Of a stretch of 64,000 bases of DNA, positions 7,776 through 46,905 are shown one piece after another. Under the pieces are notes generated by a model. That model worked only from the letters and a program-made list of their open reading frames with translations, made no database searches and had not been told where the DNA came from. Origin of the DNA: Noviherbaspirillum soli. GTDB lineage: Bacteria; Pseudomonadota; Gammaproteobacteria; Burkholderiales; Burkholderiaceae_D. The DNA lies in the NCBI RefSeq assembly GCF_015352955.1, contig NZ_JACYOX010000018.1, positions 1 through 64,000 of the forward strand, given 5' to 3'. The number at the start of each line of letters is the position of its first letter. Within the stretch, counting starts at the first letter, position 1. The position numbers and the translations under genes are program-made.

Positions 7776-7784
7776 CAAACTCTC

Positions 7785-8534: not shown

Positions 8535-8617
8535 GGAATGGATTAAATCGAAACGGGAGACAGCGATGGTAGCGGCAAATCGCGCCGCGCTGGCATCATT
8601 AGCCGGTCAAGGCGCTG

Positions 8618-15916: not shown

Positions 15917-16615
15917 ATGACGATGGAAAATTCTGGACATGAGGAAACGGGTCGCCAGCCGGAAAACGGCGCAGCGGCGACGCCTCCGCAGGTGCGTAAT
16001 CCATCGCGCCGCAGGTTCACCCGGGCTGGCGTGGGTGCATCCGCGGTCATTCTGACGCTTACCAGTCGTTCCGCGCTGGCGCAGGTCGCCTGCAAGTCCC
16101 CTTCCGGCTTTGCTTCCGCGAACCTGAGCCAGCAGAACACCGAGGCGGCCGCCTGCGATGGCATTACCGCGGCCAACTGGCTGGACCCGAACCGCAAGTG
16201 GCCTGTGCCCAAGGAAACACGCTTCATCGACATCTTCGGCAGTTCCAGCCTGATGTTTCGCACTGGTGCGCCGCAAAAATTCTACGACGCCTTTCCCAGC
16301 CGCGCCGACAAGAAGGACTTGCCGCCAGGCCAGGCGGCCAAGAGCACTTCTCTGGACGAGGCGACGCTGTACGACGCATTGAATGGCGGCGAAACGCCGG
16401 CAGTCGTGAAGTCCATCATCGCCGCTTACCTCAACTTCAAGGCCGGCCTGAATAAATATCCGACAGACCTGCAGGCCATCGCCATCTTCAAGGAATGGCA
16501 GGCCAATGGCATTTACACGCCCAGCGCCGGCATCAGGTGGGGTGAAGACGACATCATGAGCTACCTGGGCGCCACCCAGGGCCTGCCATTCACGCAACCG
16601 CGCAAGCTCGGCTGA
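15917..16615 (+). CDS. Tat-type exported protein of unknown function heading the HprK-related operon
   Basis: A 232-residue protein I do not recognise by family. It starts with a polar N-region, then SRRRFTRAG, which fits the twin-arginine motif (S-R-R-x-F), a hydrophobic stretch VGASAVILTLTSRSALAQ and a likely cleavage after ALA at about residue 55. The mature part has two Cys residues (VACKSP and AACDG) and a mostly polar, folded-looking sequence with IDIFGSSS and GIRWGEDDIMSYLGATQG near the end. There is no PEP-CTERM tail. It is the first gene of an operon with PqqD-like, HPr-kinase-like and nucleotidyltransferase genes, and could be the target handled by them; this is inference. GGGAG ten bases before the ATG supports the start. 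Confidence 0.75.
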   Translation: MTMENSGHEETGRQPENGAAATPPQVRNPSRRRFTRAGVGASAVILTLTSRSALAQVACKSPSGFASANLSQQNTEAAACDGITAANWLDPNRKWPVPKETRFIDIFGSSSLMFRTGAPQKFYDAFPSRADKKDLPPGQAAKSTSLDEATLYDALNGGETPAVVKSIIAAYLNFKAGLNKYPTDLQAIAIFKEWQANGIYTPSAGIRWGEDDIMSYLGATQGLPFTQPRKLG

Positions 16616-16637
16616 TGCAACTGCATTCTGCGTCCAG

Positions 16638-16910
16638 ATGAACTGGAAGCTGCGCGCCGGGCAGCGCCTGCGCATGCTGTCGGACGCCGAGGAAACGGTT
16701 GTCTACAACGACCTCTCCGGCGACACCCATCTACTGAGCGGCATCGCGGCCAGCCTGCTGGAACGGCTGCGGCAAGGCCCTGCGGATCGCGACAGCCTGG
16801 CCGCCTTTCTCGCCAGCGAATGGGAGCTGGACGCCGACGACGCACCTGCCACGCTGGCCGAGCAACTGCTGTCCGAACTTGCCGCCCTCAGCCTGATTGA
16901 GCACACCTGA
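16638..16910 (+). CDS. PqqD family protein of the HPr-rel-A system
   Basis: Small protein of 90 residues with the PqqD-like winged fold: the beta-hairpin VVYNDLSGDTHLLSGIAASLLERL is typical of PqqD homologues, which bind and present peptides to modifying enzymes in PQQ and other RiPP pathways. It lies 22 bases after the exported-protein gene and two bases before the HprK-like gene. This trio matches the gene neighbourhood known as the HprK-related kinase A (HPr-rel-A) system, whose reaction is not known. A peptide-chaperone role is inferred from the fold. Confidence 0.82.
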   Translation: MNWKLRAGQRLRMLSDAEETVVYNDLSGDTHLLSGIAASLLERLRQGPADRDSLAAFLASEWELDADDAPATLAEQLLSELAALSLIEHT

Positions 16911-16912
16911 CC

Positions 16913-17830
16913 TTGAAGATTTCCGAACTGCCAGACGCCGACCTGCGCTTGCGTTTGATGGCCGATGGCGTGTATTTCCGTACCGGGACTTTCACTGCCT
17001 GCCTGCGCACCCGCCTCGACCGGGTGGCGGACTCCTTCGGCCTGCTCTACAGCGACTACCCGCTTGTTGACGGCCCCTTTGCCGACTTCCACGTCGAACT
17101 CGCGCCGCCGCGCGGCTTGCGTCGCTGGTTCAGGCCGCAGGTGGACTTCATCGCCGACGGCCATGCGCCGTTCGCCGCGCTTCCCGCCAGCCAGGCATTC
17201 CCGATGTTCGAATGGGGACTGAACTGGTGCGTCTCCAGCCATGCGCATCATTACCTGATCATTCATGCCGCCGTGATCGAAAAGAATGGCCATGCCGCCA
17301 TCCTTCCGGCGCCTCCCGGCTCGGGCAAGAGCACCCTGTGCGCCGCACTGATCCATCATGGCTGGCGGCTGCTGTCGGATGAATTGACGCTGATCCGCCG
17401 TGATGACGGCGCGCTGGTTCCCTTGCCCAGGCCGGTGAGCCTGAAGAATGCCTCGATCGATGTGATCAAGCGCTACGTGCCGCATGCCACCTTCAGCCCC
17501 AGCGTAATGGATACGGTCAAGGGAACAGTGGCGCAGATGAAGGCGCCAAGCCGCAGCATCGAATGCGCCGACCAGGTTGCCAGGCCCGGATGGATCGTGT
17601 TTCCGCGCTATGAGGCAAATGCAGCGCTCTCGCTGGCGCCGGTGCCGCGCAGCCGCGCCTTCATGCGGGTGGCCGACAATGCCTTCAATTACACCCGGCT
17701 CGGTGCGGCCGGCTTCGAAGCGCTCAGAGGCGTCGTTGCGCACTCCGATTGCTACGACTTCCGTTACAGCAGGCTTGACGAAGCGATTGCCGCATTCGAC
17801 CAGCTGGCGAGCCAGGCAGGCGCGCGGTGA
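16913..17830 (+). CDS. HprK-related kinase A
   Basis: A 305-residue protein related to the C-terminal domain of HPr kinase/phosphorylase. The P-loop LPAPPGSGKSTLC is at about residues 131-143, followed by LLSDELTLIRR, which in HprK-like folds supplies the acidic metal and phosphate site. HIHAA-like LIIHAAVIEKNG precedes the P-loop as in true HprK. There is no HPr, ptsI or ptsN gene nearby, so phosphorylation of HPr is unlikely; the substrate might be the first gene's product or a small molecule. The start is TTG at 16913, two bases after the upstream stop, and the end overlaps the next gene by four bases. Confidence 0.86.
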   Translation: MKISELPDADLRLRLMADGVYFRTGTFTACLRTRLDRVADSFGLLYSDYPLVDGPFADFHVELAPPRGLRRWFRPQVDFIADGHAPFAALPASQAFPMFEWGLNWCVSSHAHHYLIIHAAVIEKNGHAAILPAPPGSGKSTLCAALIHHGWRLLSDELTLIRRDDGALVPLPRPVSLKNASIDVIKRYVPHATFSPSVMDTVKGTVAQMKAPSRSIECADQVARPGWIVFPRYEANAALSLAPVPRSRAFMRVADNAFNYTRLGAAGFEALRGVVAHSDCYDFRYSRLDEAIAAFDQLASQAGAR

Positions 17831-18903
17831 GGGCGGCACCCGTCCTGGTGCGGGTCCTGCGCGACCCGGAACGGCTGCGCGAGTTGTCTCTGGCGGAATG
17901 GGACCTGCTGCTGCGCCAGGCGCGCGCGGCCCAGCTGCTTGCGCGCATCGCCCTGCTGGCGAAGCGCCATGCGCCCGACGCGATTGCACCGCAGGCAGTG
18001 CCCCATTTCGAGGGCGCCCTGCTGGTCGCGCAGCGCCACCGGGAAGCGGTGGAGTGGGAAATCACGCAGATCGGGCAGGCGCTTGGCAGCGCCGGGCTGC
18101 CGCTGATCCTGCTCAAGGGCGCAGCCTATCTGGCGGCAGGCGCGCCCGCCGCCAGCGGCCGCAGCTTTGCCGACATCGATATCCTGGTGCCCAAGGCGCG
18201 CATCAACCAGGCCGAAGCCGCACTGATGATGCATGGCTGGGCCACCAGCCACCATAGCGCCTACGACGACCGCTACTACCGCGCATGGATGCATGAACTG
18301 CCGCCCATGCAGCATGGCCGGCGCATGACCGTGGTCGACGTGCATCATGCAATCCTGCCGACGACGGCATCCAGCAAGCCGGACTCGGCCAGGCTCATTG
18401 CCGCCGCCCGTCCGCTGCCGGGACGGCCCGGCGTGCTGGTGCTGGCCCCGGTCGACATGGTGATCCACAGCGCCTGCCATCTGTTTCATGAAGAGGAGCT
18501 TGAAAAGGGTTTGCGCGACCTGAGCGATCTCGACCTGCTGCTGCGCGATTTTGCCACCCTGCCCGGCTTCTGGTCCGAACTGCTGGCACGGGCAAGCGAG
18601 CTGGATCTGGAACGCGCCGTGTTCTATGCCCTGCGCTTTTCGGCGCATCTGCTGGGAACGCCGGTACCGCCGGCAACACTGCAGGCCGCGGCGCGCCTTG
18701 CGCCGGGACCAATGACGATGCGCCTGATGGATGCGCTGTATGGCCGGGCCCTGCTGCCGCATCATCCAAGCTGCGGCGACGGCTTTACCGGGCTGGCCCG
18801 CCGCCTGCTGTTCGTACGCGCGCACTGGCTAAGGATGCCGCCTGGGCTGCTCGTGCGTCACCTTGCGCACAAGGCTGCGGTTGCCGCCAGAGGGGAAGAA
18901 TAG
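17827..18903 (+). CDS. Nucleotidyltransferase-fold protein
   Basis: A 358-residue protein of the uncharacterised nucleotidyltransferase group. The catalytic core LPLILLKGAAYLAAG followed by GRSFADIDILVPK contains the Gly-Ser/Arg-Ser turn and the paired aspartates (DIDILV) of the nucleotidyltransferase fold. A conserved VVDVHHAILP block follows and the C-terminal half is helical. Start GTG at 17827 overlaps the HprK-like stop (GTGA), so the genes are translationally coupled. Family members often sit with PqqD and HprK-like genes and with exopolysaccharide loci. Target is unknown; it might adenylylate a protein or a small molecule. Confidence 0.8.
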   Translation: MRAAPVLVRVLRDPERLRELSLAEWDLLLRQARAAQLLARIALLAKRHAPDAIAPQAVPHFEGALLVAQRHREAVEWEITQIGQALGSAGLPLILLKGAAYLAAGAPAASGRSFADIDILVPKARINQAEAALMMHGWATSHHSAYDDRYYRAWMHELPPMQHGRRMTVVDVHHAILPTTASSKPDSARLIAAARPLPGRPGVLVLAPVDMVIHSACHLFHEEELEKGLRDLSDLDLLLRDFATLPGFWSELLARASELDLERAVFYALRFSAHLLGTPVPPATLQAAARLAPGPMTMRLMDALYGRALLPHHPSCGDGFTGLARRLLFVRAHWLRMPPGLLVRHLAHKAAVAARGEE

Positions 18904-19264: not shown

Positions 19265-20209
19265 ATGTCCATCATTTCCAAAATACAGCAGCGCCTGAGA
19301 AGAGACTATTACCGCTGGCTACATCAGAAAGCGAGTCGCGGCATCCTGGAAACGCCGCCGCTCAAGCCTGGCACATTGCCGTTCACGCTGCTGTCGATGG
19401 TGCAGAAGCGCGACGTGCTGGCCTACCTGGTCGCCCTGAAGTCCTTTGCAGCATTTGCCTGTCCGCAGCGGGTCGTGGTGGTGTGCGACCCGAGCATCGA
19501 TGACGCGGACCGCAAGATGCTGCAGTCCCATGTGCCGCATATCGAGCTGCGCGCCGCAGATGAGTTTACCCACCCTGACATTCCGCGCGGCGGCACCTGG
19601 GAGCGGCTGCTGGCTATCTGCGATTACGCGCGCGACACCTATGTCGTCCAGCTCGATGCCGACACCGTCACCGTCGACCGACCACAGGAAGTCCTGCAAG
19701 CCATTTCGCGCCGCGTCGGATTCGTACTCGGCGAAGCACCAGAACAAACGCTGATCACGCTGCCCATGACCAGCGCAAACGCCCAGGCCGATCCGGACGG
19801 GCAAAAGCATATCCAGGGTTATGCCGAAGCCTGCATGTCGCAAGTTGGCCTGCCGGCCGACGCGCTCTACGTGCGCGGCTGCTCGGGCTTCACCGGCTTT
19901 CCTCCTTCGGTCGGCATGCGCGAAGCCCTGGTGCATTTTTCCAACTGCATGGCACGCAAGATAGGCCGGCAGCGCTGGTCCGCCTGGGGTACCGAGCAGA
20001 TCACCTCGAACTACCTGGTGGCCAATGCAGCCGGCACCCAGGTGCTGCCCCATCCAAAATACGGCACACCCGACGTGATGAACAGCGACACCGCCTTCAT
20101 TCACTTCATCGGCTCGCTGCGCTTTGTCAGCGACCGCTATGAAAAGACCTCGCGCAAGGTGATCGGGCAGATGAAGGAATCAGCCCTGCTACCCAGCCTA
20201 AGTGCCTGA
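19265..20209 (+). CDS. Glycosyltransferase-like protein of the exopolysaccharide locus
   Basis: A 314-residue soluble protein. It resembles nucleotide-sugar-dependent GT-A enzymes: LLSMVQKRDVLAYLVALKSFAAF (acceptor side), VVVCDPSIDDADRKML, and a DxD motif in YVVQLDADTVTV, which would bind the metal and sugar nucleotide. CSGFTGFPPSV and WGTEQITSNYLVAN follow, consistent with a glycosyltransferase active site. I do not recognise a named family with confidence. It is first in an operon with a flippase (34-base gap) and two further glycosyltransferases, which supports a role in sugar transfer for the exopolysaccharide. The start ATG at 19265 is without a strong ribosome binding site. Confidence 0.6.
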   Translation: MSIISKIQQRLRRDYYRWLHQKASRGILETPPLKPGTLPFTLLSMVQKRDVLAYLVALKSFAAFACPQRVVVVCDPSIDDADRKMLQSHVPHIELRAADEFTHPDIPRGGTWERLLAICDYARDTYVVQLDADTVTVDRPQEVLQAISRRVGFVLGEAPEQTLITLPMTSANAQADPDGQKHIQGYAEACMSQVGLPADALYVRGCSGFTGFPPSVGMREALVHFSNCMARKIGRQRWSAWGTEQITSNYLVANAAGTQVLPHPKYGTPDVMNSDTAFIHFIGSLRFVSDRYEKTSRKVIGQMKESALLPSLSA

Positions 20210-35496: not shown

Positions 35497-37422
35497 TCAG
35501 GCCGCAGCCAGGCTATGCGCCGGCGTCTCCTCCAGGCAGTTGCGCAGGAAGGCCTCGAACATCATCACGGTGTAGATCGGCGCGGTGTAATCGCGCCGGC
35601 CGGACTGGTGCTGCTCCACCATGTCCTGCAGGAAGCGCATGTTGAAGATGCCGGTGCCGGCCAGCGTTGGCCCGAGCAGGGCCTGCTTCACGCGCTCGCG
35701 CAGCGGCCCGCGGAACCAGCTCGCCAGCGGAATCGAGAAGCCCATCTTGTCCCGGTACAGCACGTCATGCGACAGATGCGGCTCCAGCGACTTCTTCAGA
35801 ATGTACTTGCCTTCCTGGCCGCGCAGCTTCAGCGACGACGGCACGCCGGAAGCCCATTCCACGAATTCATGGTCCAGCAGCGGCACCCGCACTTCCAGTG
35901 CATGGGCCATGCTGGCGCGGTCGACCTTGGTCAGGATGTCGCCCGGCAGCCAGGTCTTCATGTCCACATACTGGATCAGCGACAGCGGATCGTCGGTGGG
36001 GCTATTGGCCGCATGGCCGCGCATGACTTCGATGGCACTGTAGCCCTGCAGCGAGCGCTTGAAGCCGTCGGAGAACAGCTGCGCCCTGACCCGGTCCGGC
36101 ATCACCGACACGCCATGAAAATAGCCTTCCACCAGGTCGCGCGCCAGCGCCTCGAAGGTAGTCTTGGCGCGGAACATGCGCGGCGCCCAGTCCGCTTTCG
36201 GATAGACATTGCCGAGGAAGCCGAACACGGGCTTCCTGAGCGAGGAAGGCAGCACCGAACGCACCCGCTGCTCCGCCATCGCATACCGGTAGCGCCGGTA
36301 GCCCGCGAAATTCTCGTCGCCGCCATCGCCGGACAGGGCCACGGTGACGCGCTTCCTGGCCAGCTCGCATACGCGGTAAGTCGGAATGGCGGAGCTGTCG
36401 GCGTACGGTTCATCGTAGAGCCGGGCCAGCGTGTCGATCAGGCCATAGTCGTCCTTGTCGACCACCTCGCGATAATGCGTGGTCTTGTACTGCCGCGCCA
36501 CCTCGGCTGCATACTCCGATTCGTCGTAGGCCTGGTCGTCGAAACCGATGGAGCAGGTACTGACCGGCTCGTCGCTCATGCCGGCCATCATCGCCACCAC
36601 CGCGCTGGAGTCGACGCCGCCGGACAGGAAGGCGCCCAGCGGCACATCGGCCACCGTGTGGCTCTGCACCGCGTCGCGCAGCTTGACGATCAGCTCCTGC
36701 TCGGCTTCCTCGGCCGACATCGGCGCATGCGGCTTGAACGGCACGTCCCAGTATTGCTTCTGCGCCGGCAGCGTGGCCGCGCCGGCCTTCAGCGTCATCA
36801 TGTGGCCCGGCTGCAGCTTGAAGGCGCTCCTGAAGATGGTGCGCGGCTCGGGCACATAGCCATAGGCGAAATAGTCCTCGACCGCATGCGGGTCGAGTTC
36901 GCGCGACAGCCCCGGTATCGACATCAGCGCCTTCAGTTCCGAGCCGAACAGGAACATGCCATCGTCCAGCAGCGCGCAATACATCGGCTTGATGCCGAGC
37001 CGGTCGCGGGCCAGGAACATGGTCTGCTTGTTGCGGTCCCACAGCGCAAAGGCGAACATGCCCCGGAAACGCTGCACGCAGGCCTCGCCCCACTCTTCCC
37101 AGGCATGCACGATCACCTCGGTGTCGCAGCGGGTGCGGAAGGTGTGGCCCAGGCCGGTCAGCTCGTCCATCAGCGCGGCGAAGTTGTATATCTCGCCATT
37201 GAACACCAGCACCACGCTGTGGTCCTCGTTGAACAGCGGCTGCTGCCCCGACGACAGGTCGATGATGGACAGCCGCCGATGGCCGAAGCCGATGCCCGCC
37301 TCGCGATGCACCCCGCCCTCGGTCGGGCCGCGATGGTGCTGGGTTTCATTCATCCGCGTCAGCAGTTGCAGGTCGATGTCGCGCATCTGGCGCATATCGA
37401 AGATTCCGACGATTCCACACAT
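35497..37422 (-). CDS. XrtA/PEP-CTERM system amidotransferase (asparagine synthase-like)
   Basis: A 641-residue class II glutamine amidotransferase fused to an asparagine-synthase domain. MCGIVGIFDM places the catalytic Cys at position 2; HHRGPTEGG and FNGEIYNF belong to the glutaminase part. The synthetase half has the PPi-binding loop LGAFLSGGVDSSAVVAMM and ALSGDGGDENFAGYRRYRYAM. The sequence matches the family found in exosortase A loci, which is thought to amidate a uronic acid or an amino acid in the polymer. It is the last gene of the XrtA operon, two bases after the second glycosyltransferase, and is followed by an intrinsic terminator. Confidence 0.92.
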   Translation of the reverse strand: MCGIVGIFDMRQMRDIDLQLLTRMNETQHHRGPTEGGVHREAGIGFGHRRLSIIDLSSGQQPLFNEDHSVVLVFNGEIYNFAALMDELTGLGHTFRTRCDTEVIVHAWEEWGEACVQRFRGMFAFALWDRNKQTMFLARDRLGIKPMYCALLDDGMFLFGSELKALMSIPGLSRELDPHAVEDYFAYGYVPEPRTIFRSAFKLQPGHMMTLKAGAATLPAQKQYWDVPFKPHAPMSAEEAEQELIVKLRDAVQSHTVADVPLGAFLSGGVDSSAVVAMMAGMSDEPVSTCSIGFDDQAYDESEYAAEVARQYKTTHYREVVDKDDYGLIDTLARLYDEPYADSSAIPTYRVCELARKRVTVALSGDGGDENFAGYRRYRYAMAEQRVRSVLPSSLRKPVFGFLGNVYPKADWAPRMFRAKTTFEALARDLVEGYFHGVSVMPDRVRAQLFSDGFKRSLQGYSAIEVMRGHAANSPTDDPLSLIQYVDMKTWLPGDILTKVDRASMAHALEVRVPLLDHEFVEWASGVPSSLKLRGQEGKYILKKSLEPHLSHDVLYRDKMGFSIPLASWFRGPLRERVKQALLGPTLAGTGIFNMRFLQDMVEQHQSGRRDYTAPIYTVMMFEAFLRNCLEETPAHSLAAA

Positions 37423-37424
37423 AG

Positions 37425-38558
37425 TCAGGCCTTGCTGGTTCTGGTTTTCATTGCGCGCAGGGTGTCGTACAAGCCGGCATAACCGGCCACCATGGCGGCG
37501 ATACTGTTGCTCTTCTCTACCCGCTCGCGGCCGGCGGCGCCGTGCCGCGCGGCGAGCTGCGGGTCTTCCACATACACAGCCAGCGCCCTGGCGAGCGCCT
37601 CGGTGTCCGACGGCGGCGGCATCAGGCCGGTCACGCCCTCCTGCACCACTTCAGGTATGCCGCCCACTCTGGATGCCACCACAGGCAAACCGCATGCCAT
37701 GGCTTCCAGGATGGTGACCGGCGTGCCTTCGGCAATCGACGGCAGCGCGAACACGTCGAAGTCGGCCATCCGTTCCGCGATGTCGGTGCGCGAGCCGGGC
37801 AGCCAGACCACATCCTGCAAGCCCGCCGCATGCACCTTTTCGCGGATGCGCGGCAGCAATGGCCCGTCACCGATGATGGCCAGGCGCAGCCGGCCCGCAT
37901 CCTCGGGAAGCATGTCGCGCAGCCGGACGAAGGCATCGATCAGGCCGCTGTGGTTCTTCACGTCCTGGATGCGGCCGACCGTGCCGATCACGAACTCGCG
38001 GCGCGGATAGTCGCGCTGGCGCGGCGCGAAGCGCTCGGTATCGACACCGTTGGCGATCAGCAGGGTCTTGGCATCCGGCACGCCGACCACCTGGCGCAGC
38101 CAGCGCTGCAGGTCGTCCGACACCGGGATGTAGCGGTCGATGAACGGGGTCACGCCACGCCGCAGCAGGTTGTGCTTGCGGTTCAGTCCATGCGGGTCGG
38201 CCGCATCGCGGCCATGCTCGGCATGCACCCTCACCGGCACGCCGGCAAGCGCGGCGGTGCAGGCATATTCGACCGCGGCCAGGTTATAGCTGTGCAGCAC
38301 GGCCGGCTTCAACCGGCGCAGCAGCTTCCACAGTTTGAGGTGGGTGCCCAGCGCCAGCCCGGGCGGCTTGTCCAGCGCAATGATCTGCACGTCGTCGCGG
38401 CTGATCTTCCTGGCGAACTCGGTGTAACCGGTCAGGCAGACGATCGCATGCCGGTACTGGCGTGCCGGCATGCGGTTGATGCATTCGGCCACCAGGGTTT
38501 CCAGCCCCCCAAAGTCGAAGCGGTAGATCAGGTGGACGACCAGAGGCGCGGCATTCAT
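37425..38558 (-). CDS. XrtA/PEP-CTERM system glycosyltransferase (stp2-like)
   Basis: A 377-residue GT-B transferase. It starts PLVVHLIYRFDFGGLETLVAECINRMP, followed by HSYNLAAVEYACTAALAGVP and VRVHAEHGRDAADPHGLNRK, a set I associate with the second glycosyltransferase of XrtA loci. The C-terminal block FALPSIAEGTPVTILEAMACGLPVVAS contains the sugar-nucleotide-binding Glu residues. The start ATG at 38558 lies 13 bases after the xrtA stop; an earlier ATG at 38591 would overlap xrtA. Two bases before the amidotransferase gene. Confidence 0.9.
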   Translation of the reverse strand: MNAAPLVVHLIYRFDFGGLETLVAECINRMPARQYRHAIVCLTGYTEFARKISRDDVQIIALDKPPGLALGTHLKLWKLLRRLKPAVLHSYNLAAVEYACTAALAGVPVRVHAEHGRDAADPHGLNRKHNLLRRGVTPFIDRYIPVSDDLQRWLRQVVGVPDAKTLLIANGVDTERFAPRQRDYPRREFVIGTVGRIQDVKNHSGLIDAFVRLRDMLPEDAGRLRLAIIGDGPLLPRIREKVHAAGLQDVVWLPGSRTDIAERMADFDVFALPSIAEGTPVTILEAMACGLPVVASRVGGIPEVVQEGVTGLMPPPSDTEALARALAVYVEDPQLAARHGAAGRERVEKSNSIAAMVAGYAGLYDTLRAMKTRTSKA

Positions 38559-38571
38559 CGCTTCAACACCA

Positions 38572-40110
38572 TCAGTGCGCCCGGTTTGCATTCAGCGTTG
38601 CCTCCAGCGAGGGGAGCTGCGCGGCAATGAAGCTGCGCAGCGCGGCACGCGCGGCATCCGGGTTTTCTTCATAGCGGGCATAGACCAGGATGCCGGCGCC
38701 ATCGTCGCCGCGCATCAGCAGGCGCTCCTTGGCCTGCAGCAGCTTGCCCAGATAATCGTTGGCGGTGAAGCCGCCATCGATCCAGTACCACTGCCAGGCC
38801 ACCAGCGCGCCGTCCGGGCCGCGCAGCCGGGTTTCCCGTATCTGCAATTGCCGCCCATTGATGTCCTCGATGCGTGCCGAAGAACCGGTGCGGCGCCATG
38901 GGTCGGTCTCGACATCGCCCACCAGCTGGTTGGTCGAGCTGATCAGTCCGGCGCCCTGCGGCTGGTTGCGGTAATAACGCACCATCAGGCCCACCTGCTG
39001 GCCATCCTGCGCCCGCACCTGGTTCAGGCTGGCGGCTGCCTTGTTCAGGCGCGGCGTCCAGGCCGTGAACGGCTGGCCCGCCGCCCAGGCCGGCTGCAGG
39101 CCGGACAGGCTGGGCGCAGCAGCCGATTCGCTGGCGCGCAGGGTGAAGCCGGCATACAGCGGCCAGAATGCCAGGCAGGCGAGCACCGCTGCCGCAGCCG
39201 CGGCCACCTGCATCGAACTGGCGGCGCTGGCGCCATCGCGGCGCACGGTCTCGGCATCAGCCTCGTCGGCGGCGCTGATGTCCTCGCGCCAGCGGCTGCC
39301 GAGCCAGAACATGATGAACATCACCAGCCCGAAGAACAGCCAGCCATAGATGATGTGATCCACGCCCGTTGCCAGCTCCATGCCGGACAGGTGCCCGATC
39401 ATCACGATCATGTAGGCGCGCAGGCCGTTGGCGACGATGGGCACCAGGATGGAGATCAGCACGAACAGCAGCTGCCGCTTGCGCGAGCGGTAAGTCAGGT
39501 AGGCATACAGGCAGCCCAGCGTGAAGGAGGCAATCAGGTAGCGCACGCCGCTGCAGGCTTCCACCACCGACCAGTTGCCGGTCGGGATGGAAAAATTGGT
39601 GCCGTCGCGCAGCACCGGAATGCCGGTCATCTGCAAGGCCCAGACGGTGAAGTCGGCGGTCACATTGATCAGCGGATCGATGAACACCTCGCCAAACGGC
39701 ACGGCCAGCAGCACATACGCCAGCGGAAAGGCGATGGCCCAGGAGATCCTCAGGCCGCATACCACCACCACGGTGAGCGGCAGCATCGCGGCGAACGCGT
39801 ACTGCCTCACCACCTGCACGTCGCCCATTTCGGCCAGCAGCCAGCCGAAGCCGCACACGGCCAGCGACAGCAGGGCCGGCCAGTAAGGCTGCGGCGACAT
39901 CTGCATCAGCGTCGCGCGCCGCTTCCAGATCAGCCACAGGCTGATCGGCAGGATCACATAGCCGTGGGCAAAGGTTTCCGAGCTGTTCCAGATCGCGACG
40001 ATGGAGCGGGCCGTCGCCGCATAGATGAGGAACGGCGCCAGCACCGCCACGGCGATGGCAATGATCTTGAGCATATCGCGCGGCGCGGCGCGGGTTTCGG
40101 TCAGGAGCAT
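38572..40110 (-). CDS. xrtA: Exosortase A (XrtA) fused to an EpsI domain
   Basis: A 512-residue fusion. Residues 1-270 are the eight-helix exosortase with the catalytic Cys186 in EACSGVRYLIAS, Arg231 in NGLRAYMIV and His252 in GVDHIIYGW, the cysteine-arginine-histidine set of the exosortase transpeptidases that cleave the PEP-CTERM sorting tail. Residues about 300-505 are the EpsI-like domain with one membrane anchor (VLACLAFWPLYAGF) and the conserved NQPQGAGLISSTNQLVGD and WYWIDGGFTANDYLGKLLQ motifs. The fusion of the two is common in betaproteobacteria. It overlaps the upstream glycosyltransferase by ten bases. No PEP-CTERM substrate is visible in the window. Confidence 0.94.
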   Translation of the reverse strand: MLLTETRAAPRDMLKIIAIAVAVLAPFLIYAATARSIVAIWNSSETFAHGYVILPISLWLIWKRRATLMQMSPQPYWPALLSLAVCGFGWLLAEMGDVQVVRQYAFAAMLPLTVVVVCGLRISWAIAFPLAYVLLAVPFGEVFIDPLINVTADFTVWALQMTGIPVLRDGTNFSIPTGNWSVVEACSGVRYLIASFTLGCLYAYLTYRSRKRQLLFVLISILVPIVANGLRAYMIVMIGHLSGMELATGVDHIIYGWLFFGLVMFIMFWLGSRWREDISAADEADAETVRRDGASAASSMQVAAAAAAVLACLAFWPLYAGFTLRASESAAAPSLSGLQPAWAAGQPFTAWTPRLNKAAASLNQVRAQDGQQVGLMVRYYRNQPQGAGLISSTNQLVGDVETDPWRRTGSSARIEDINGRQLQIRETRLRGPDGALVAWQWYWIDGGFTANDYLGKLLQAKERLLMRGDDGAGILVYARYEENPDAARAALRSFIAAQLPSLEATLNANRAH

Positions 40111-41327
40111 GTGGACGCCGTTCTCGGTTGATGGGAAGGGATGTCCAGCAGCGCATCGACCCGCGACATGTTGACGTCCCAGTTATAGCTGGCCTCCACC
40201 TGCGCCCGCGCCGCGCGTCCCAGGTCGGCCGGCAGTTCATCGAGCGCGTCGCAGGCCAGCCCGACGAATTCACTGGCGTCGCTGGCCAGCAGCAGATCGC
40301 GGCCGGCCTGCGCGCTGATGCCTTCCAGCGCCTGCGGCGACACGATCACCGGCTTGGCCATGGCCATGGCTTCCAGCACCTTGTTCTGTATGCCGCGCGC
40401 AATGCGCAGCGGCGCCACCGATAGCTGCGCATGGGCCAGATACGGACGCACATCTGGCACGGTGCCGGTGACATGGATGCCGGGCCGCTGCCCCAGTGCC
40501 TGGACCTGCGGCGCCGGCCGGGAGCCGACGATATAGAAGCGCGCCTGCGGATGCCGCTGCAGGATGGCGGGCAGCATCTCGTCGGCAAACCATTGCACCG
40601 CATCGACATTGGGCCAATAGTCCATGGCGCCGGTGAAGACCATCACGGGCCCGCCTTCCGGATAAGGATTGTCGAAGTCATGCATCGGCGAGAAATAGCC
40701 GCTGTCCACGCCATTGCTGAACCAGCCGATGCGCGCCTGGCTTTCCGGCGCCAGGCCGGAAAAAAGCGCCGCTTCCTGCGCCGAGACGAACAGCGAGGCA
40801 TCGAATTCCCGCGCCACGCGGCGCTCATAGCGCAGCAGCTGCCTGCCCTCGCGGGCATACACCCGGTTCATCGGCCAGGACTTCTGCACTGCATACTGGC
40901 TCCACTTGGCGGAGTCGACATCGACGAAGTCGATCACCTTGCGCGCATAGCGCTGCGGCTCGACGAACTGCGCCATCACCGACGAGAACACCAGCACCCG
41001 CGACACCGGCAGCTTGCGATGCAGCCGCGCCACCCATTCCGACAGCGAGCGGCTGCGGTAATAGTCCAGGCTCAGCGGCCGGTTCGCCAGCAACGCGGTC
41101 GCGCTCATCATGCGCGCGCGGCGGCTGTCCAGTTTCACGAAATGGGTTTCGCCGCACAGCTTCCTGACCGCGTCCACGTACTGCCAGTCATCCGGATCAT
41201 CGATGAAGGTGCCCAGATGCACCTGATAGCGCTCGGACAGGTGCCGCAGCAGATGATAGGAACGGATCTTGTCGCCCTTGTTGGGCGGATAAGGAATCCG
41301 GTGCGCCAGGTAAAGGAGATGCTCCAC
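40101..41327 (-). CDS. XrtA/PEP-CTERM system glycosyltransferase (stp1-like)
   Basis: A 408-residue GT-B transferase. It starts HLLYLAHRIPYPPNKGDKIRSYHLLRHLS, a beginning that is nearly diagnostic for the first glycosyltransferase of XrtA loci, and continues with VLVFSSVMAQFV, the conserved DFVDVDSAKWSQYA and VFTGAMDYWPNVDAVQWFADEM. The start is GTG at 41327, three bases after the FemAB-like gene. It overlaps xrtA by ten bases, so these genes are translationally coupled. Likely adds a sugar to the lipid-linked repeat unit. Confidence 0.92.
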   Translation of the reverse strand: MEHLLYLAHRIPYPPNKGDKIRSYHLLRHLSERYQVHLGTFIDDPDDWQYVDAVRKLCGETHFVKLDSRRARMMSATALLANRPLSLDYYRSRSLSEWVARLHRKLPVSRVLVFSSVMAQFVEPQRYARKVIDFVDVDSAKWSQYAVQKSWPMNRVYAREGRQLLRYERRVAREFDASLFVSAQEAALFSGLAPESQARIGWFSNGVDSGYFSPMHDFDNPYPEGGPVMVFTGAMDYWPNVDAVQWFADEMLPAILQRHPQARFYIVGSRPAPQVQALGQRPGIHVTGTVPDVRPYLAHAQLSVAPLRIARGIQNKVLEAMAMAKPVIVSPQALEGISAQAGRDLLLASDASEFVGLACDALDELPADLGRAARAQVEASYNWDVNMSRVDALLDIPSHQPRTASTCS

Positions 41328-41330
41328 GGT

Positions 41331-42413
41331 TCAGCCCAGGTTCTTGACGATATGCGGGCCGATGAGGTTGGCAAGCGCGATCGGCATTTTCTGCCAGGTG
41401 CGTATCATCAGCTGGTACTTGGGATTGAGCGGATTGGTGTCCGGCACCTCGGTCGCGCGCACCAGCTTGTATTCATAGTGCAGCGGCGTCGGCTCGAAGC
41501 CCCAGTTCTTCTTGAAGTCGTGCGAGCCGGTGCCCTTCTTGCTACGCCCGAAATCGAAGATGCGGTATCCGCGGGTGCAGGTACGGCGCATCAGTTCCCA
41601 ATACATGAAGTCATTGCCGGCGACTTCCCGCGCTTCCGGCATGCCGCCGCCGTAATAAGGCAGCACTTCGTCGCGAAAATAAAAGCTCATCACGCTGCTG
41701 ATCAGGTTGCCATCCTTGGTGATGGTCATCACCTCGCAGTCGTCGCCGAAGGTTTCCTTCAGCAGCCGGAAGTACTTCTTTGAAAAGACCGGCGTGCCGA
41801 GCCGGTGCACGCTGGTGGAATAGGCGGCGAAGAAACGGTCCACATTGGCGTCGATCTCGCTGGCCAGGCCCGCCTTGATGCCCTTGCGCACCATCGCGCG
41901 CTGCTTGCGCGGGATGGCATTCATGTTCTTTTCCGGGTCCGGGTCCATTTCCTTGCGGAAGGTGACGTACAGGTCCTTGGCATGCCAGTCGGCATGGCGC
42001 GGTGCGACGTTGTGATACTCCAGGTGCCCCACCTGCAGCTTCGCTGCCAGCGCCTGGGCTTCGCGGTCGAGCGCATCGGCCACGGCATCGGAGGTGGCGG
42101 CCGGGCCGCCATAGACGCAGAACGGCAGCGAGCCCAGGGAGTGCCCGAACAGGCGGCTTTTGATTTCGGCCAGCGGCAGCACGCCCTCGATGCGGCCGTC
42201 CACCTCGGCGAGGTAAAAATAGGTCTTGTGGCCGAAGGCCTGTTCGATCACCTTCTGCCAGCCGGCGCGGTGAAAGAAGCTGGCTTGCGGGCAGTTCAGC
42301 ACGAACTCATCCCAGCGCGCCGCATCCTGCGGCTGCATCAGGCGGATCTGTGGCGCGGCTTGCGCCGCGTTGGCCCGGGCGCGGTCCTGCGATGCTTCGA
42401 TAATGGCGCTCAT
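41331..42413 (-). CDS. FemAB-like protein, XrtA/PEP-CTERM system-associated
   Basis: A 360-residue protein of the FemAB/GNAT fold. It begins IRLMQPQDAARWDEFVLNCPQASFFHRAGWQKVIEQAFGH, and shows the FemAB block RKQRAMVRKGIKAGL, FYFRDEVLPYYGGGMPEAR and GYRIFDFGRSKKGTGSHDFKKNWGFEPTPLHY, which is typical of the FemAB-like gene in exosortase A loci. FemAB enzymes transfer amino acids from aminoacyl-tRNA to a cell-wall peptide; here an aminoacyl group might be added to the polymer, but this is not demonstrated. Overlaps the deacetylase gene by four bases (ATGA). Confidence 0.92.
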   Translation of the reverse strand: MSAIIEASQDRARANAAQAAPQIRLMQPQDAARWDEFVLNCPQASFFHRAGWQKVIEQAFGHKTYFYLAEVDGRIEGVLPLAEIKSRLFGHSLGSLPFCVYGGPAATSDAVADALDREAQALAAKLQVGHLEYHNVAPRHADWHAKDLYVTFRKEMDPDPEKNMNAIPRKQRAMVRKGIKAGLASEIDANVDRFFAAYSTSVHRLGTPVFSKKYFRLLKETFGDDCEVMTITKDGNLISSVMSFYFRDEVLPYYGGGMPEAREVAGNDFMYWELMRRTCTRGYRIFDFGRSKKGTGSHDFKKNWGFEPTPLHYEYKLVRATEVPDTNPLNPKYQLMIRTWQKMPIALANLIGPHIVKNLG

Positions 42414-43306
42414 GATTTATGCAAGAAAATGTTGTCCATGCGATCCCACTGGAAGTCGCGGGTCAGCGCCCGCAGACGGGTTTCCATGCGATCCAGATTG
42501 ACGTAGTGGCGGAACCGGGTCTTGAAGCCCACGCCATGCTGGCGCGGTTGTCCTGGATCGATTTCCCACGGATGAAAGTAGAAGATGCCGGCCTGCCTGT
42601 CGTCGCGGTTGACCTTGTCGATGAACCAGCGCGACAGCGCATACGGAAAGAAGCGGAAGTAGCCGCCGCCGCCCGCCGGGAAATTGCGGTCCATCACACG
42701 CACCGTGGTGATCGGCACTTCCAGCAGGCCGTCCTCGCCATTGGGATAGAACGCAAAGCGCGGCGCATCGGGCATGCCGTAATGGTCATGCTGGATCGGA
42801 TAGATGCTGGAGCTGTAGCGGTAGCCGGCATTGCGCAGCGTGTCCAGCGCCCACAGGTTGCGGGTGCCGATCGAGAAGCTGGGCGCGCGATAGCCCAGCA
42901 CCTGCTGGCCCGATATGTCTTCCAGCAGCGCCTTGCTGCGGCTGATGTCGTCGCGGAATTCCTCGGCACTCTGGTCGGATGCGCGCAAATGCGCATAGCC
43001 ATGGCTGGCCAGCTCATGGCCGCCGTCGACGATGGCGCGCACCACCTGCGGATAACGCTCGGCGATCCATCCCAGCGTGAAGAAAGTGGCCTTGACGTCG
43101 CGCTCCTTGAGCAAGGCGAGTATGCGATCCACATTGCGCTCGACGCGGCAGTCCATGCTGTTCCAGTTTTCACGCGGGATGTGGGGCGCGAAAGCCGAGA
43201 CCTGGAAGTAGTCCTCGACGTCGATCGTCATTGCATTGCGAATTCCGGCTGCAGGCCGGCCTGTTGCCTGGCCTTGCGCGCCTGAATGTGTAGTGCCTGT
43301 CTGCAT
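42410..43306 (-). CDS. XrtA system polysaccharide deacetylase
   Basis: A 298-residue carbohydrate esterase 4 (NodB) enzyme. Motifs: MTIDVEDYFQVSAF (Asp pair), ATFFTLGWIAERYP, HELASHGYAHLRAS (H-x3-H metal ligands), YRAPSFSIG and FYFHPWEIDP. The DVEDYFQVS signature is diagnostic for the exosortase A-associated deacetylase family. ATG at 43306 has AGGAG six bases upstream, so it is preferred to an ATG at 43360. It would remove N-acetyl groups from the exopolysaccharide in the periplasm or cytoplasm (no signal peptide is visible). Confidence 0.93.
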   Translation of the reverse strand: MQTGTTHSGAQGQATGRPAAGIRNAMTIDVEDYFQVSAFAPHIPRENWNSMDCRVERNVDRILALLKERDVKATFFTLGWIAERYPQVVRAIVDGGHELASHGYAHLRASDQSAEEFRDDISRSKALLEDISGQQVLGYRAPSFSIGTRNLWALDTLRNAGYRYSSSIYPIQHDHYGMPDAPRFAFYPNGEDGLLEVPITTVRVMDRNFPAGGGGYFRFFPYALSRWFIDKVNRDDRQAGIFYFHPWEIDPGQPRQHGVGFKTRFRHYVNLDRMETRLRALTRDFQWDRMDNIFLHKS

Positions 43307-43367
43307 GGTGTGCTCCTGTTCCCCGCCACGGGCGCTGGCGCCGGACAGGGAGCTTTTCAATCAGGTA

Positions 43368-44357
43368 TCAGATTTTCGACGTGGAGATCAGCCGCTTCAG
43401 CACATCCAGCACCGAGGTGACCGAGCGCTCGATCTTGGACAGCCTCTCGTCCAGGTGCTCCATGCTCTCGGCCGTAGTGTCGGCAAAGCCGCGCGGCATG
43501 CCGCCCGCATAGGCCGGCAATGCGCTCATTTCCGGCGGCGGCGGCGTGAACTCTTCCTGGATGTCCTTGATGACTTCGCCCACTTCCTCCGCATTGAACT
43601 GATGCAGTTCCTCGAGGTAGCCCATCAGGAACAGCCTGTCGCACAGGGTATTGATCTTGCGCGGTATGCCGCCCGAGTAGTCGAAGATGGCCGCATAGGC
43701 TTCCGGCGTGATCACGGGATCGCCCTTCCAGCCCGCCGTCTGCAGGCGGTGCTCGATATAGGCCTGGGTCTCGGCGGCATCCATCGGCCCGAGGTGATAG
43801 GTGGCGATCACGCGCTGGCGCAGCTGCTGCATGTCCTCGCTGTGCAATGTGCGGCGGAATTCCGGCTGCCCGAGGAGGAAGGTCTGCAGCAGCGACTTCT
43901 CGTTGGTCTGGAAGTTCGACAGCATGCGCAGCTCCTCCACCGTCTGCGGCGTCAGGTTCTGCGCCTCGTCCACCACCAGCAGCACCCGCTTGCCCTGCTT
44001 GTCGCTATAGCGCAGGAACTGCTCGAACCGCGCCAAGAGGCCGGTCTTGCTCGGGTCGTCGAAAGGCAGGCCGAAGGCGGCCACGACCGAGCGCAGCGTA
44101 TCGTCGGAGTTCAGGTGGGTGTTGACGATCTGGGCCGCAATGATGCGGTTCGATTCGAGCTTGCGAAACAGGTTGCGCACCAGCGTGGTCTTGCCGGCGC
44201 CGACTTCACCGGTGATGACGATGAAGCCCTCGCCTTGCGACAGTCCGTATTCCAGGTAGGACATGGCGCGCTTGTGGCCCTTGCTGCCGAAGAAGAAATT
44301 CGGGTCCGGCCGCAATTGGAAGGGCTTGGCATGCAGCCCGTAGAAAGATTCATACAT
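43368..44357 (-). CDS. XrtA-associated AAA-type ATPase (secretion ATPase, ExeA-like)
   Basis: A 329-residue ATPase. It begins MYESFYGLHAKPFQLRPDPNFFFGS, has Walker A TGEVGAGKTTLVRN at residues 49-62 and Walker B VLLVVDEAQNLT at about 130-141, followed by ELRMLSNFQTN and GIPRKINTLCDRL. This is the ExeA/GspA-like ATPase of exosortase loci, of unknown target. The C-terminal 45 residues are a predicted coiled coil (MEHLDERLSKIERSVTSVLD). It is 16 bases downstream of the beta-barrel gene in the XrtA operon. Confidence 0.93.
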   Translation of the reverse strand: MYESFYGLHAKPFQLRPDPNFFFGSKGHKRAMSYLEYGLSQGEGFIVITGEVGAGKTTLVRNLFRKLESNRIIAAQIVNTHLNSDDTLRSVVAAFGLPFDDPSKTGLLARFEQFLRYSDKQGKRVLLVVDEAQNLTPQTVEELRMLSNFQTNEKSLLQTFLLGQPEFRRTLHSEDMQQLRQRVIATYHLGPMDAAETQAYIEHRLQTAGWKGDPVITPEAYAAIFDYSGGIPRKINTLCDRLFLMGYLEELHQFNAEEVGEVIKDIQEEFTPPPPEMSALPAYAGGMPRGFADTTAESMEHLDERLSKIERSVTSVLDVLKRLISTSKI

Positions 44358-44373
44358 CGATTCAGTTTCTCCG

Positions 44374-45924
44374 CTATAACCGCATGGTCAAGTAGGCCGA
44401 GATCGCGTTCTCGCGGAAATCGGTCCCCGTCTGGCTGTAGGAGCCCTGGTAGCGGCGCAGCTCGACCGTGCCGGTTGTCTTTGGCGACAGTTGATGCGAC
44501 AGGCCCAGCGTGACGAGCGTGTTGTCGTCGGTGCGGTTGCTCAGCAGCGAGGTGGTGCGGTAGTAACGCGCATTCAGGTTCATCGAGGTCAGTGGCGTCA
44601 GCCGCAGATTCCACAGGCCACTGACGCCGCGCTGGCGCGATTCGTCGATGAATAGCTGGTTGCTGGCGGTGAACAGGCCGACATTGTCGGACACGCCCGT
44701 CTGCGGACGGCGCAGGGTGTTATACACCGACACCAGCACCGTGGACTTGCCGGTGTTGAGCGCCACCGAGCCCTGCAACCGCTTCTGCAGGAAGAATCGG
44801 TTGGACAAGCCGGCATTCGGGTTGGCCAGGGTCGCAGGCAGATTGGTGGCGCGGATGAACGCGTCGACCGCCTGCGCGCGCGCCGTCGGGTCTGCGATGG
44901 TCGCGGAAAACACCTGGTCCAGGAAGGCGGTGGTGCTGATCGATCCGGAATCGACCAGCTGCTGCTGGGTGGTGGTGATGTCTTCGTTGTAGCTGACGTT
45001 CCAGGTCGTATAGCGGCTGCGGTGAATGCCGTTCAGGCTGTACGCGTTGCCATAGAAGCGGCGGCCGGCGGTGGCGGCCAGGCTGGTGCGCGACGACGGC
45101 TTCCAGTCGAAACCGACGCTCCACGATGCGCCCCTCGGGCCGTCGCCAATGCTCTGATAGGTGTAGCGGTCATAGCCGGCCGAGCCGGTCAGGCTGAACT
45201 GGTCGGTCAGCTTGTAGCGCAGTACGCCATTGAGATAATCGTTGTCGACCGAATTGAGCGAGTTGTAGCTGCTATGGCGGCGCGATGCGGTCACATCCCA
45301 GCTCACGAGGCGGAATGCCTCGCCGCTGTTGACGAAAAGATTGAGCAGGTCGCTGTTGTAGTTGGAAAAGCCGGCGGTGTCGCTGCTCAGGCCCTGGTGG
45401 GTATAGCGCGCTTCCGCCTGCGCCACGGAACCATAGCGCTGGCGCACATAGGGACTGATCGAATAGGTCCGCACTTCGCTGCGGTTGTTGATCGCATAGC
45501 TGCTGTCGAGCGCCTGCGGTCCGTACGGCGAGGTGCTGAGATTGGTGATGTTGGCCGTACCGTCGATGAACAGCAGGTCGTCGACCAGCTGCGCCGTGCC
45601 GCGGGCATTCAGATAGTTCTGCAGATTGCTGCTGCCGACATCGTTGCTGTAAGTAACGCCACGCGCCTGGTAGGTGGCCTGGAACTGGGAACGGCGACCA
45701 AGGCCGTTCACGGAAATGCCCGGCATGACTTCCGTCACGAATGACGATTGCTCATTGCCGGTTGGCGCGAGCCTGATGTTGTCGCTGTAGGTTTCACGCA
45801 GCGTCAGCGTCGGATTGAAGCGCCATTCGGCTGCCAGCGCGGGCGCTGCCTGCATGCCCAGCACGGCCAGTGCGGCCAGCGCTGCGGGACGACGCACGAA
45901 TTTTTTACATGTAGTACGCGCCAT
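44374..45924 (-). CDS. XrtA/PEP-CTERM system outer-membrane beta-barrel protein
   Basis: A 516-residue protein with a signal peptide (LAALAVLGMQAAPALA, cleaved at about residue 31). The mature part is made of alternating polar and hydrophobic strands with many aromatic end residues (for example TLRETYSDNIRLAPTGNEQSSFV, GVTYSNDVGSSNLQNYLNARG, and the C-terminal AISAYLTMRL ending in a hydrophobic residue), as in outer-membrane barrels. It matches the barrel family of exosortase A loci, proposed to help export the polymer. It overlaps the tyrosine kinase by one base (TGATG). Confidence 0.9.
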   Translation of the reverse strand: MARTTCKKFVRRPAALAALAVLGMQAAPALAAEWRFNPTLTLRETYSDNIRLAPTGNEQSSFVTEVMPGISVNGLGRRSQFQATYQARGVTYSNDVGSSNLQNYLNARGTAQLVDDLLFIDGTANITNLSTSPYGPQALDSSYAINNRSEVRTYSISPYVRQRYGSVAQAEARYTHQGLSSDTAGFSNYNSDLLNLFVNSGEAFRLVSWDVTASRRHSSYNSLNSVDNDYLNGVLRYKLTDQFSLTGSAGYDRYTYQSIGDGPRGASWSVGFDWKPSSRTSLAATAGRRFYGNAYSLNGIHRSRYTTWNVSYNEDITTTQQQLVDSGSISTTAFLDQVFSATIADPTARAQAVDAFIRATNLPATLANPNAGLSNRFFLQKRLQGSVALNTGKSTVLVSVYNTLRRPQTGVSDNVGLFTASNQLFIDESRQRGVSGLWNLRLTPLTSMNLNARYYRTTSLLSNRTDDNTLVTLGLSHQLSPKTTGTVELRRYQGSYSQTGTDFRENAISAYLTMRL

Positions 45925-46829
45925 CAGTTGTATCCATACCCATAGCTGTTGCCGGAAAACGCCTTGGTCTTGTTGTAGACCAGGCTGACGTTGTTGTCGC
46001 TGCCGAGCTGTCGCAGCGCATCCTTGACCGCATGCTGCGTCGTGGTTTCGGCCTCGACAACCATCACGATTTGTCCCATGTGGCTGGCCAGCACCTTGGC
46101 CTCGGTCGTCATCAGCAGCGGCGGCGAATCGAAGATCACGATACGGTCCGGATAGCGGCGCGCGATATCGTCGAGCAGATTGCTCATCGACAGGCTGGCG
46201 AGCAGTTCGGTGGAATTCTTGTGCGGCTGGCCTGCCGGCAGGATGCGCAGCGTATCGACATTGGTACGCAGCATCACATCCGACAGATCGAGCTTGTCAT
46301 TGAGCAGCACATCCATCAGGCCCTCGGTGGCTTCGATGCCGAGATAGCGGGGCACCGACGGACGCGCCACATCGGCGTCGACCAGCAGCACCGTATGGTC
46401 CATTTCCATCGCAATGCTCATTGCCAGATTGATGGCGCAGAAGGTCTTTCCCTCGCCCGGCAGCGCACTCGTCACCATGATCAGGTTGTTGTGGCGCTCC
46501 ACGCCGCCGCCCTTGGACAGCGCGTGCTTGATCAGGGGGCGCTTGATCATCCGGAATTCCTCGGCCACCGGCGTGCGTCCGCCCTCCGGCGTCACCATGC
46601 CCAGCCGGTGCAGCTGCTCCAGGTTGATCTCGACGCGCCGGCTCGGCTGCCCGCTGGGCTGCCGCATGTCCGGCATGGGCTCATGCTGTGGCGCATAGGC
46701 GACCGCGGCTTCCACTACGGGGTCATGGTGACCGAAGTCGCGCGCAAGCGGGTTGTCGATGTCATGTACGAGTGGCTTGTCCACCTTGTTGCGGTCAAGC
46801 CGGCCAGCGGCCTTTTCAATAATGCTCAC
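45924..46829 (-). CDS. XrtA system tyrosine protein kinase (BY-kinase)
   Basis: A 301-residue bacterial tyrosine kinase domain. Walker A SALPGEGKTFCAINLA is at about residues 121-136, Walker A' VLLVDADVARPSVPR at 148-162 and Walker B RIVIFDSPPLLMTTEA. The C-terminus FSGNSYGYGYN is tyrosine-rich, the site of autophosphorylation in this family. It works with the chain-length protein encoded upstream, here as a separate cytoplasmic half. The start GTG at 46829 follows GGGAG by five bases and gives VSIIEKA, the family's usual beginning; a TTG four codons upstream is less likely. Confidence 0.93.
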   Translation of the reverse strand: MSIIEKAAGRLDRNKVDKPLVHDIDNPLARDFGHHDPVVEAAVAYAPQHEPMPDMRQPSGQPSRRVEINLEQLHRLGMVTPEGGRTPVAEEFRMIKRPLIKHALSKGGGVERHNNLIMVTSALPGEGKTFCAINLAMSIAMEMDHTVLLVDADVARPSVPRYLGIEATEGLMDVLLNDKLDLSDVMLRTNVDTLRILPAGQPHKNSTELLASLSMSNLLDDIARRYPDRIVIFDSPPLLMTTEAKVLASHMGQIVMVVEAETTTQHAVKDALRQLGSDNNVSLVYNKTKAFSGNSYGYGYN

Positions 46830-46905
46830 GCTTTCTCCCAATCGTATTCAATGCAATGCATCCGAAGCTGTTGCAGCGGCGGCCAGGGCCGCGCTGATGT
46901 CGTCA

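Follow-up and report, generated by a model that had tools for sequence, protein, structure and literature searches.

A serine-tagged twin-arginine protein as fourth component and candidate substrate of an HPr-rel-A operon in Noviherbaspirillum soli

The four-gene operon and its products

The window, meaning the whole 64,000-nucleotide (nt) stretch of Noviherbaspirillum soli contig NZ_JACYOX010000018.1 (positions 1 to 64,000) analysed here, carries at 15917-18903 an operon of the HPr-rel-A type, a system which NCBI has named without assigning it a function, headed by the gene of a protein with a twin-arginine (RR) translocation (Tat) signal which we call TatX. The first-pass annotation, made from the sequence alone, had described four closely spaced plus-strand genes at this position and had proposed the exported product of the first as the target of the other three. 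The open reading frames (ORFs) and their spacing agreed with this layout; genes 1 and 2 are separated by 22 nt, genes 2 and 3 by 2 nt, and genes 3 and 4 overlap by 4 nt, so that the four ORFs were read as one operon with the following features.

15917..16615, plus strand: TatX, Tat-exported protein and proposed substrate, 232 residues; ORF without Pfam or NCBIfam family, homologues in other loci
16007..16081, plus strand: twin-arginine signal of TatX, residues 31-55 (RRRFTRAG...SALA)
16091..16129, plus strand: serine tag of TatX, C59-S71 (CKSPSGFASANLS), with Ser63 and Ser67 as candidate modified residues
16638..16910, plus strand: PqqD-like peptide chaperone, TIGR04353, 90 residues (60 bits against a cut-off of 35)
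16913..17830, plus strand: HprK-related kinase A, TIGR04352, 305 residues, TTG start (394 bits against a cut-off of 200)
17318..17335, plus strand: kinase P-loop GSGKST, residues 136-141
17827..18903, plus strand: PF14907 nucleotidyltransferase, 358 residues, GTG start (184.6 bits against a cut-off of 31.2)
18172..18180, plus strand: D-x-D motif of the nucleotidyltransferase (D116, D118)

The assignment of genes 2 to 4 as PqqD-like, HPr-kinase-like and nucleotidyltransferase genes was upheld, all three products scoring above curated family cut-offs, and the TIGR04352 kinase with an adjacent TIGR04353 protein and an adjacent nucleotidyltransferase places the locus in the HPr-rel-A system. Gene 4 gave no NCBIfam match and in Pfam matched PF14907; no solved-structure relative of its product was found, and its D-x-D motif is presumably catalytic by analogy with its fold class. 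TatX itself matched no NCBIfam model to E 0.1 and no Pfam family to E 1, and a search for solved-structure relatives returned one chance match only (E 0.98).

The length and the export signal given for TatX at first pass were both correct, the arginine pair at residues 31-32 being followed by a hydrophobic stretch and an AxA motif. Mature TatX, 174 residues counted from C59, contains the two cysteines that had been reported, but the accompanying statement that it holds no other known motif has to be amended since a conserved serine tag is present. The 30 residues ahead of the arginine pair (median 29 in 90 relatives, with start codons unverified) may be a leader bound by the PqqD-like protein. 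Two other identities were considered for TatX and rejected. It is not a lipoprotein, judging by eye from the residues preceding C59, which do not fit a lipobox, and it is not a PEP-CTERM protein, as it carries a Tat signal instead and the NCBIfam search that gave no match included the PEP-CTERM models.

The first-gene slot, its serine tag and its linkage to the enzymes

Of 397 phylum genomes, 51 contain a TIGR04352 kinase scoring above cut-off. Together with 80 of 188 kinase relatives kept from a contig scan and with the window, stretches from these phylum genomes gave 137 loci to be read; exclusion of L082-L086, which contain sub-cut-off kinases only, left 132 loci for later counts. A search with the single TatX sequence detected a homologue in 71 of the 137 loci including the window, always on the kinase strand and upstream of the kinase, and profiles found more. 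Where no TatX homologue was present the same slot mostly held twin-arginine proteins from other families. We therefore applied a slot rule by which an ORF of 100-350 residues on the kinase strand, ending 150-800 nt before the kinase, must contain an arginine pair followed by an uncharged hydrophobic stretch. Such an ORF was present in 116 of 131 readable loci, and when the slot was shifted by ten distances the figure was between 3 of 109 and 24 of 119 (3-20%). This is a mechanical rule, and among the candidates it accepted at least L041 resembles an ORF read in the wrong frame. Reading of the rule-negative loci added twin-arginine genes in L039 and L078, family-B matches (see below) added those in L055 and L057, and broken or truncated family-A genes lie in L106 and L149. 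A TatX-type twin-arginine protein is thus a fourth, near-constant part of the HPr-rel-A system, described here for the first time.

Annotated plasmids of Vibrio alfacsensis and Sphingomonas parapaucimobilis have the same order, a twin-arginine "hypothetical protein" first and then the kinase and the nucleotidyltransferase. The Vibrio record (L233; plasmid NZ_CP140104.1, 160520-163587) has a small ORF without a listed gene in the PqqD place (locus positions 7733-7987), the PLSDB gene table being incomplete, and on this plasmid the system lies near 2-aminoethylphosphonate uptake genes.

At least three protein families occupy the slot: A (alignment A1), B (16-row alignment A4) and C (7-row alignment A5). 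Family A, found in the window and in beta- and some gammaproteobacteria, opens with the serine tag, followed by a domain of about 100 residues with SPGYWKNHP...WP and H-x-VAALLNA motifs; TatX has mostly lost the GYWK signature. Family B ends in S-C-W-x-S-[FLI], and family C, from sphingomonads, in T-C-[FY]-A-S-L-Q. Profile-profile comparison gave no kinship among the three (probability 0.1-0.8%), and the sole stretch aligning between the B and C profiles pairs C-W-x-S-F with C-x-A-S-L. The serine of the C-terminal C-x-x-S is invariant in the 19 rows of alignment A2 and the 8 rows of alignment A3 (L048 being in both); the leftover proteins of L048 and L079 likewise end in C-x-x-S, and that of L073 keeps the serine without the cysteine. 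None of 10 slot proteins had a Pfam or NCBIfam family over cut-off, and TatX with ten relatives gave a single sub-cut-off Tat-signal match in each of the two collections. In a quick tree of 60 kinases, in which 28 of 57 inner branches are weak and 6 rows have no class, families A, B and C each fall on one side of a branch, or require one change, with support of 92, 96 and 99.

The family-A tag has the consensus C-x-S-P-S-G-x-x-S-G-N-x-S, with the serines at tag positions 5 and 9 invariant in all 53 rows of A1, the columns of the family averaging only 17% identity. A1 comprises 53 of 62 non-redundant family-A rows, nine (L032, L033, L035, L039, L063, L078, L097, L131, L148) having been left out as divergent, near-duplicate, mis-trimmed or containing a masked stretch. 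In a profile alignment of 133 collected family-A proteins, near-copies included, where serines are not forced by the search pattern, serine stands at the place of Ser63 in 131 of 132, of Ser67 in 132 of 132 and of Ser71 in 121 of 133. Ser63 and Ser67 thus appear more conserved than the surrounding fold, as would be expected of an acceptor site.

Cross-genome searches for the cargo covered families A and B. Within the order, 51 of 399 genomes gave 53 match rows with the profile of mature family A; two of the rows belong to a single gene, which left 52 genes. Of these, 47 start at profile position 7 or earlier and so carry the tag, and five start at position 24-27 and have no tag. The nucleotidyltransferase was found around all 47 tagged genes, the kinase around 46 and the PqqD-like gene around 45, and the only tagged gene without a kinase (G741) is on a contig of 3,580 bases. 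Around the five untagged genes the search for kinase, PqqD-like and nucleotidyltransferase genes was negative, both in the first stretches and in a further 3.4-10.6 kb on one or both sides. One genome (G467) has both kinds, a tagged gene that is linked and an untagged gene that is not. The possibility raised at first pass, that the first gene might be common without the other three, is answered by these figures, as every tagged relative was linked and the five relatives apart from the system all lacked the tag.

Ten of the 47 tagged proteins had already been collected next to a kinase (100% identity). Identity to the collected proteins does not exceed 88% for the remaining 37 (33 at 70% non-redundancy), every one of which is linked, so that the rule was tested on genes which had not made it; the case for linkage rests on these 37 independent genes because the other counts include proteins collected beside the kinase. 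Nor was the search blind to tagged genes standing alone, because these would outscore the untagged ones. In six loci (L205, L211, L214, L219, L220, L230) the tagged gene lies behind the nucleotidyltransferase rather than before the PqqD gene, and the linkage is kept.

Among the 397 phylum genomes the family-A profile matched 13, of which ten have the match within 610 nt of a kinase; all ten were known from the kinase search and seven are rows of the profile. The remaining three matches are partial. Two are in proteins of 750 and 288 residues that have the domain but lack the tag; neither the stretch around them nor 7 kb more on each side showed a gene for the kinase, the PqqD-like protein or the nucleotidyltransferase. 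The third is weak (E 8.9e-4), and the motif filter gave no protein for it. Family B occurred in 20 of the 397 genomes; every one of these belongs to the 51 that have the kinase, and the other 346 gave no match. Its 21 matches comprise 18 within 1 kb of a kinase and 3 on other contigs; 16 of the 21 are rows of the profile, and of the five new ones two are beside a kinase and three on other contigs. The informative part of the family-B search is therefore the absence from kinase-free genomes.

The domain of about 100 residues with (S/T)PGYWKNH-like and VAALLNA motifs also occurs in mostly large proteins with no HPr-rel-A system nearby (L167:842-3094, plus strand; L168:2487-3353, minus strand; L212, L213, L215, L217, L218). 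The mature parts of four tagged relatives carrying it or a remnant of it had no Pfam match, so that the domain looks undescribed.

The enzymes and their genomic neighbourhood

Across the 132 loci, with near-copies counted, the kinase shows no variation at His118, Gly138, Lys139, Thr141, Asp156, Glu157 and Lys178; the same holds for Lys97, Gly98, Arg112, Asp116, Asp118 and Asp171 in all 125 PF14907 proteins. By this pattern of residues the kinase and the nucleotidyltransferase both look active. The second-best NCBIfam relative of the kinase was ScmC of the SynChlorMet cassette, at 35.6 bits and below its cut-off of 125.

Clustering of neighbouring ORFs of at least 120 residues recovered the kinase in 120 loci, the nucleotidyltransferase in 112 and the first gene in 79, with the next cluster at 44; the short PqqD gene mostly falls under this length limit and was followed with its own profile. 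By eye, the commonest other clusters are presumably lineage-bound synteny of Thiobacillus relatives and XrtA polysaccharide genes. In the window, a 314-residue ORF at 19265-20209 (plus strand) stands between the operon and a flippase gene and gave no Pfam match to E 1 and a chance-level NCBIfam match (E 0.098). A separate observation concerns L082, where the kinase ORF (7675-8829, minus strand) encodes an HprK homologue scoring below cut-off and has a neighbour that weakly resembles a nucleotidyltransferase; just upstream of this kinase ORF is a 70-residue peptide ORF ending in PGGLL, possibly the precursor of a ribosomally synthesized and post-translationally modified peptide (RiPP).

The window also contains one larger locus outside the core system, of a kind often found near it.

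35497..48420, minus strand: XrtA/EpsH exosortase polysaccharide locus (span of the XrtA polysaccharide genes tested), with exosortase A at 38572-40110

The operon had been described at first pass as lying next to this exosortase locus; the two do share a region, but the locus begins 16.6 kb downstream of gene 4 on the other strand and is a neighbour in a loose sense only. Of the 51 kinase genomes 34 have an exosortase (TIGR02602 over cut-off), against 48 of the 346 others (Fisher p = 1e-14, uncorrected for kinship). In 12 of the 34 the exosortase and kinase lie within 60 kb of each other, where about one would be expected at a rough 3% per genome, several of the 12 being close kin. The exosortase link is common but not required. 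The only asparagine-synthetase-like protein that turned up in the window, at 35497-37422, is the amidotransferase of the XrtA locus, and no match to PF13471, which we take to be the fold of lasso B2 leader proteases, was found in the whole genome. As there is also no cyclase in the operon, identification of the locus as a lasso peptide cluster was rejected.

Proposed modification of TatX and comparison with known systems

The role of TatX as substrate, which the first-pass annotation had suggested, is well supported by the tag and its linkage to the enzymes. Enzymes of the same types as in lasso peptide tailoring (see below) stand here beside a serine-tagged protein, which suggests serine phosphorylation and the addition of a sugar or nucleotide on TatX. 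On balance we favour a self-contained modification system whose substrate is encoded by its own first gene. What was observed is that the four genes are linked, that linkage follows the tag, that the serines are conserved and that both enzymes keep their candidate catalytic residues; the binding by the PqqD-like protein and the reaction, with its site and sequence of events, we infer as follows. The PqqD-like protein would bind and present the long N-terminal region of TatX, HprK-related kinase A would phosphorylate Ser63 and/or Ser67 in the tag that opens the mature protein, the PF14907 enzyme would move a sugar or nucleotide onto the phosphate, and the modified, folded TatX would leave by the Tat pathway. 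Export of proteins that have been modified and have folded in the cytoplasm depends on the Tat route, and TatX would need it because its modification would be made there. The mark on the TatX serines is probably a sugar-phosphate.

Several observations weigh against this proposal. Nine loci that failed the slot rule (L034, L046, L050, L064, L065, L069, L081, L103, L109) have no twin-arginine gene by any reading, some of them being at contig ends, and in 15 of 132 loci the PqqD gene was not recognised by its profile, another small ORF standing in its place in several. L032 and L233, whose family-A proteins are Vibrio-like, have the first tag serine displaced by one position. The conserved serine is N-terminal in family A and C-terminal in B and C, so that one recognition rule for the kinase is not obvious, and because the kinase clades follow taxonomy too, their grouping by cargo in the tree proves little by itself. 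The five untagged relatives are, by eye, of about two kinds and so amount to fewer than five independent tagless cases. Gene 4 is likened to PsmN, an enzyme of pseudomycoidin tailoring, by description and not by shared PF14907 membership. Finally, the fourth residue of the kinase catalytic motif is Glu (H-K-D-E) in 132 of 132 loci, these positions being set by eye with no lasso kinase aligned, whereas lasso kinases have H-K-D-D according to the accessible parts of PMC9266682.

The linkage data bear directly on an alternative in which the kinase is directed at something other than TatX, such as a factor of exopolysaccharide synthesis, and TatX is only a periplasmic partner or sensor regulated together with it. 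The substrate of true HprK is a carrier protein, and the enrichment of exosortase in kinase genomes, with the two within 60 kb in 12 of 34, speaks for such a target. We consider it improbable, given that 17 of the 51 kinase genomes have no exosortase over cut-off, that across lineages only the kinase, the nucleotidyltransferase and the first gene recur among the ORFs clustered, and that both the tag/linkage rule and the interchangeable twin-arginine proteins would be left unexplained. That TatX is instead a RiPP precursor, its tag region released as a small modified peptide and the rest serving as a large follower, is the least likely of the alternatives. PqqD-like and HprK-like proteins are RiPP enzymes (PMC8498205, PMC9266682, in their accessible parts) and the sub-cut-off relationship of the kinase to ScmC points the same way, yet when the 30 commonest neighbour clusters were read by eye none with a protease, cyclase or exporter recurred across lineages, the genome is without a PF13471 match, and the position of the tag directly behind the Tat signal would allow release of a product only after export.

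A different mark on the same substrate would result if the PF14907 enzyme adenylylated or uridylylated the serine or phosphoserine with no sugar involved. PF14907 is named as a nucleotidyltransferase family, its candidate D-x-D and third aspartate (D171) are intact, and for PsmN the available text of PMC9266682 leaves room for true nucleotidylation with a host glycosyltransferase acting afterwards. The reported pseudomycoidin product bears hexoses and not a nucleotide (available text of PMC8498205 and PMC9266682), and we regard a nucleotide mark as unlikely, if less so than either of the readings above.

If the favoured modification of TatX by its own operon is correct, lasso-type tailoring reaches full-size exported proteins, the need for chemical marking of a cargo in the cytoplasm becomes a new reason for Tat export, and PF14907, "uncharacterised" in Pfam, gains a proposed protein substrate. 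A wider version can be offered only tentatively, namely a general marking pathway in which RiPP-type enzymes put a phospho-sugar or phospho-nucleotide on the serine tag of folded Tat cargo, the cargo domains being swapped while serine motif and enzymes are kept, and in which a marked protein near an exosortase could anchor or prime an exported polysaccharide. For a system that has had a name and no function, a named candidate substrate with two exact serines makes it directly testable.

The closest known system is the HPr-rel-A system of NCBIfam itself, as genes 2 and 3 pass its models and gene 4 is in the usual place; the models name no reaction, and the twin-arginine substrate and serine tag are added by the present analysis. 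A literature search by HPr-rel-A names, model accessions, domain motif and combinations of parts found no paper, most subscription journals being outside its coverage, and a table of clusters with lasso B2, nucleotidyltransferase, sulfotransferase and PqqD proteins in the accessible part of PMC10040529 does not list the system. Relationship to true HprK is distant; the P-loop and the flanking His/Asp region of the kinase align weakly with PDB 1jb1 (E 0.87), and at 16.7 bits the kinase is far from the TIGR00679 cut-off of 240. With the XrtA/PEP-CTERM system the operon shares a gene region here and, within 60 kb, in 11 other genomes.

The workings proposed for the operon are known from lasso peptide tailoring, the nearest chemistry that has been characterised. 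According to the accessible parts of PMC8498205 and PMC9266682, PadeK-type HprK homologues phosphorylate a serine of the precursor peptide, and PsmN, annotated as a nucleotidyltransferase, adds one or two hexoses onto that phosphate in pseudomycoidin. As in the paeninodin and pseudomycoidin systems (PadeK/ThcoK, PsmK-PsmN), as far as described there, an HprK-like kinase, a nucleotidyltransferase homologue and a PqqD-like carrier (B1) are clustered, and the serine acceptor, a candidate here, and the His, Lys and first Asp of the catalytic motif are held in common. In contrast to lasso peptides, TatX as candidate substrate is an entire Tat protein rather than a short peptide, the candidate acceptor is not the last residue, and the operon is without B2 protease and cyclase. 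The system is thus not a member of the lasso peptides; new in the present analysis are the fourth component, its tag and a testable site.

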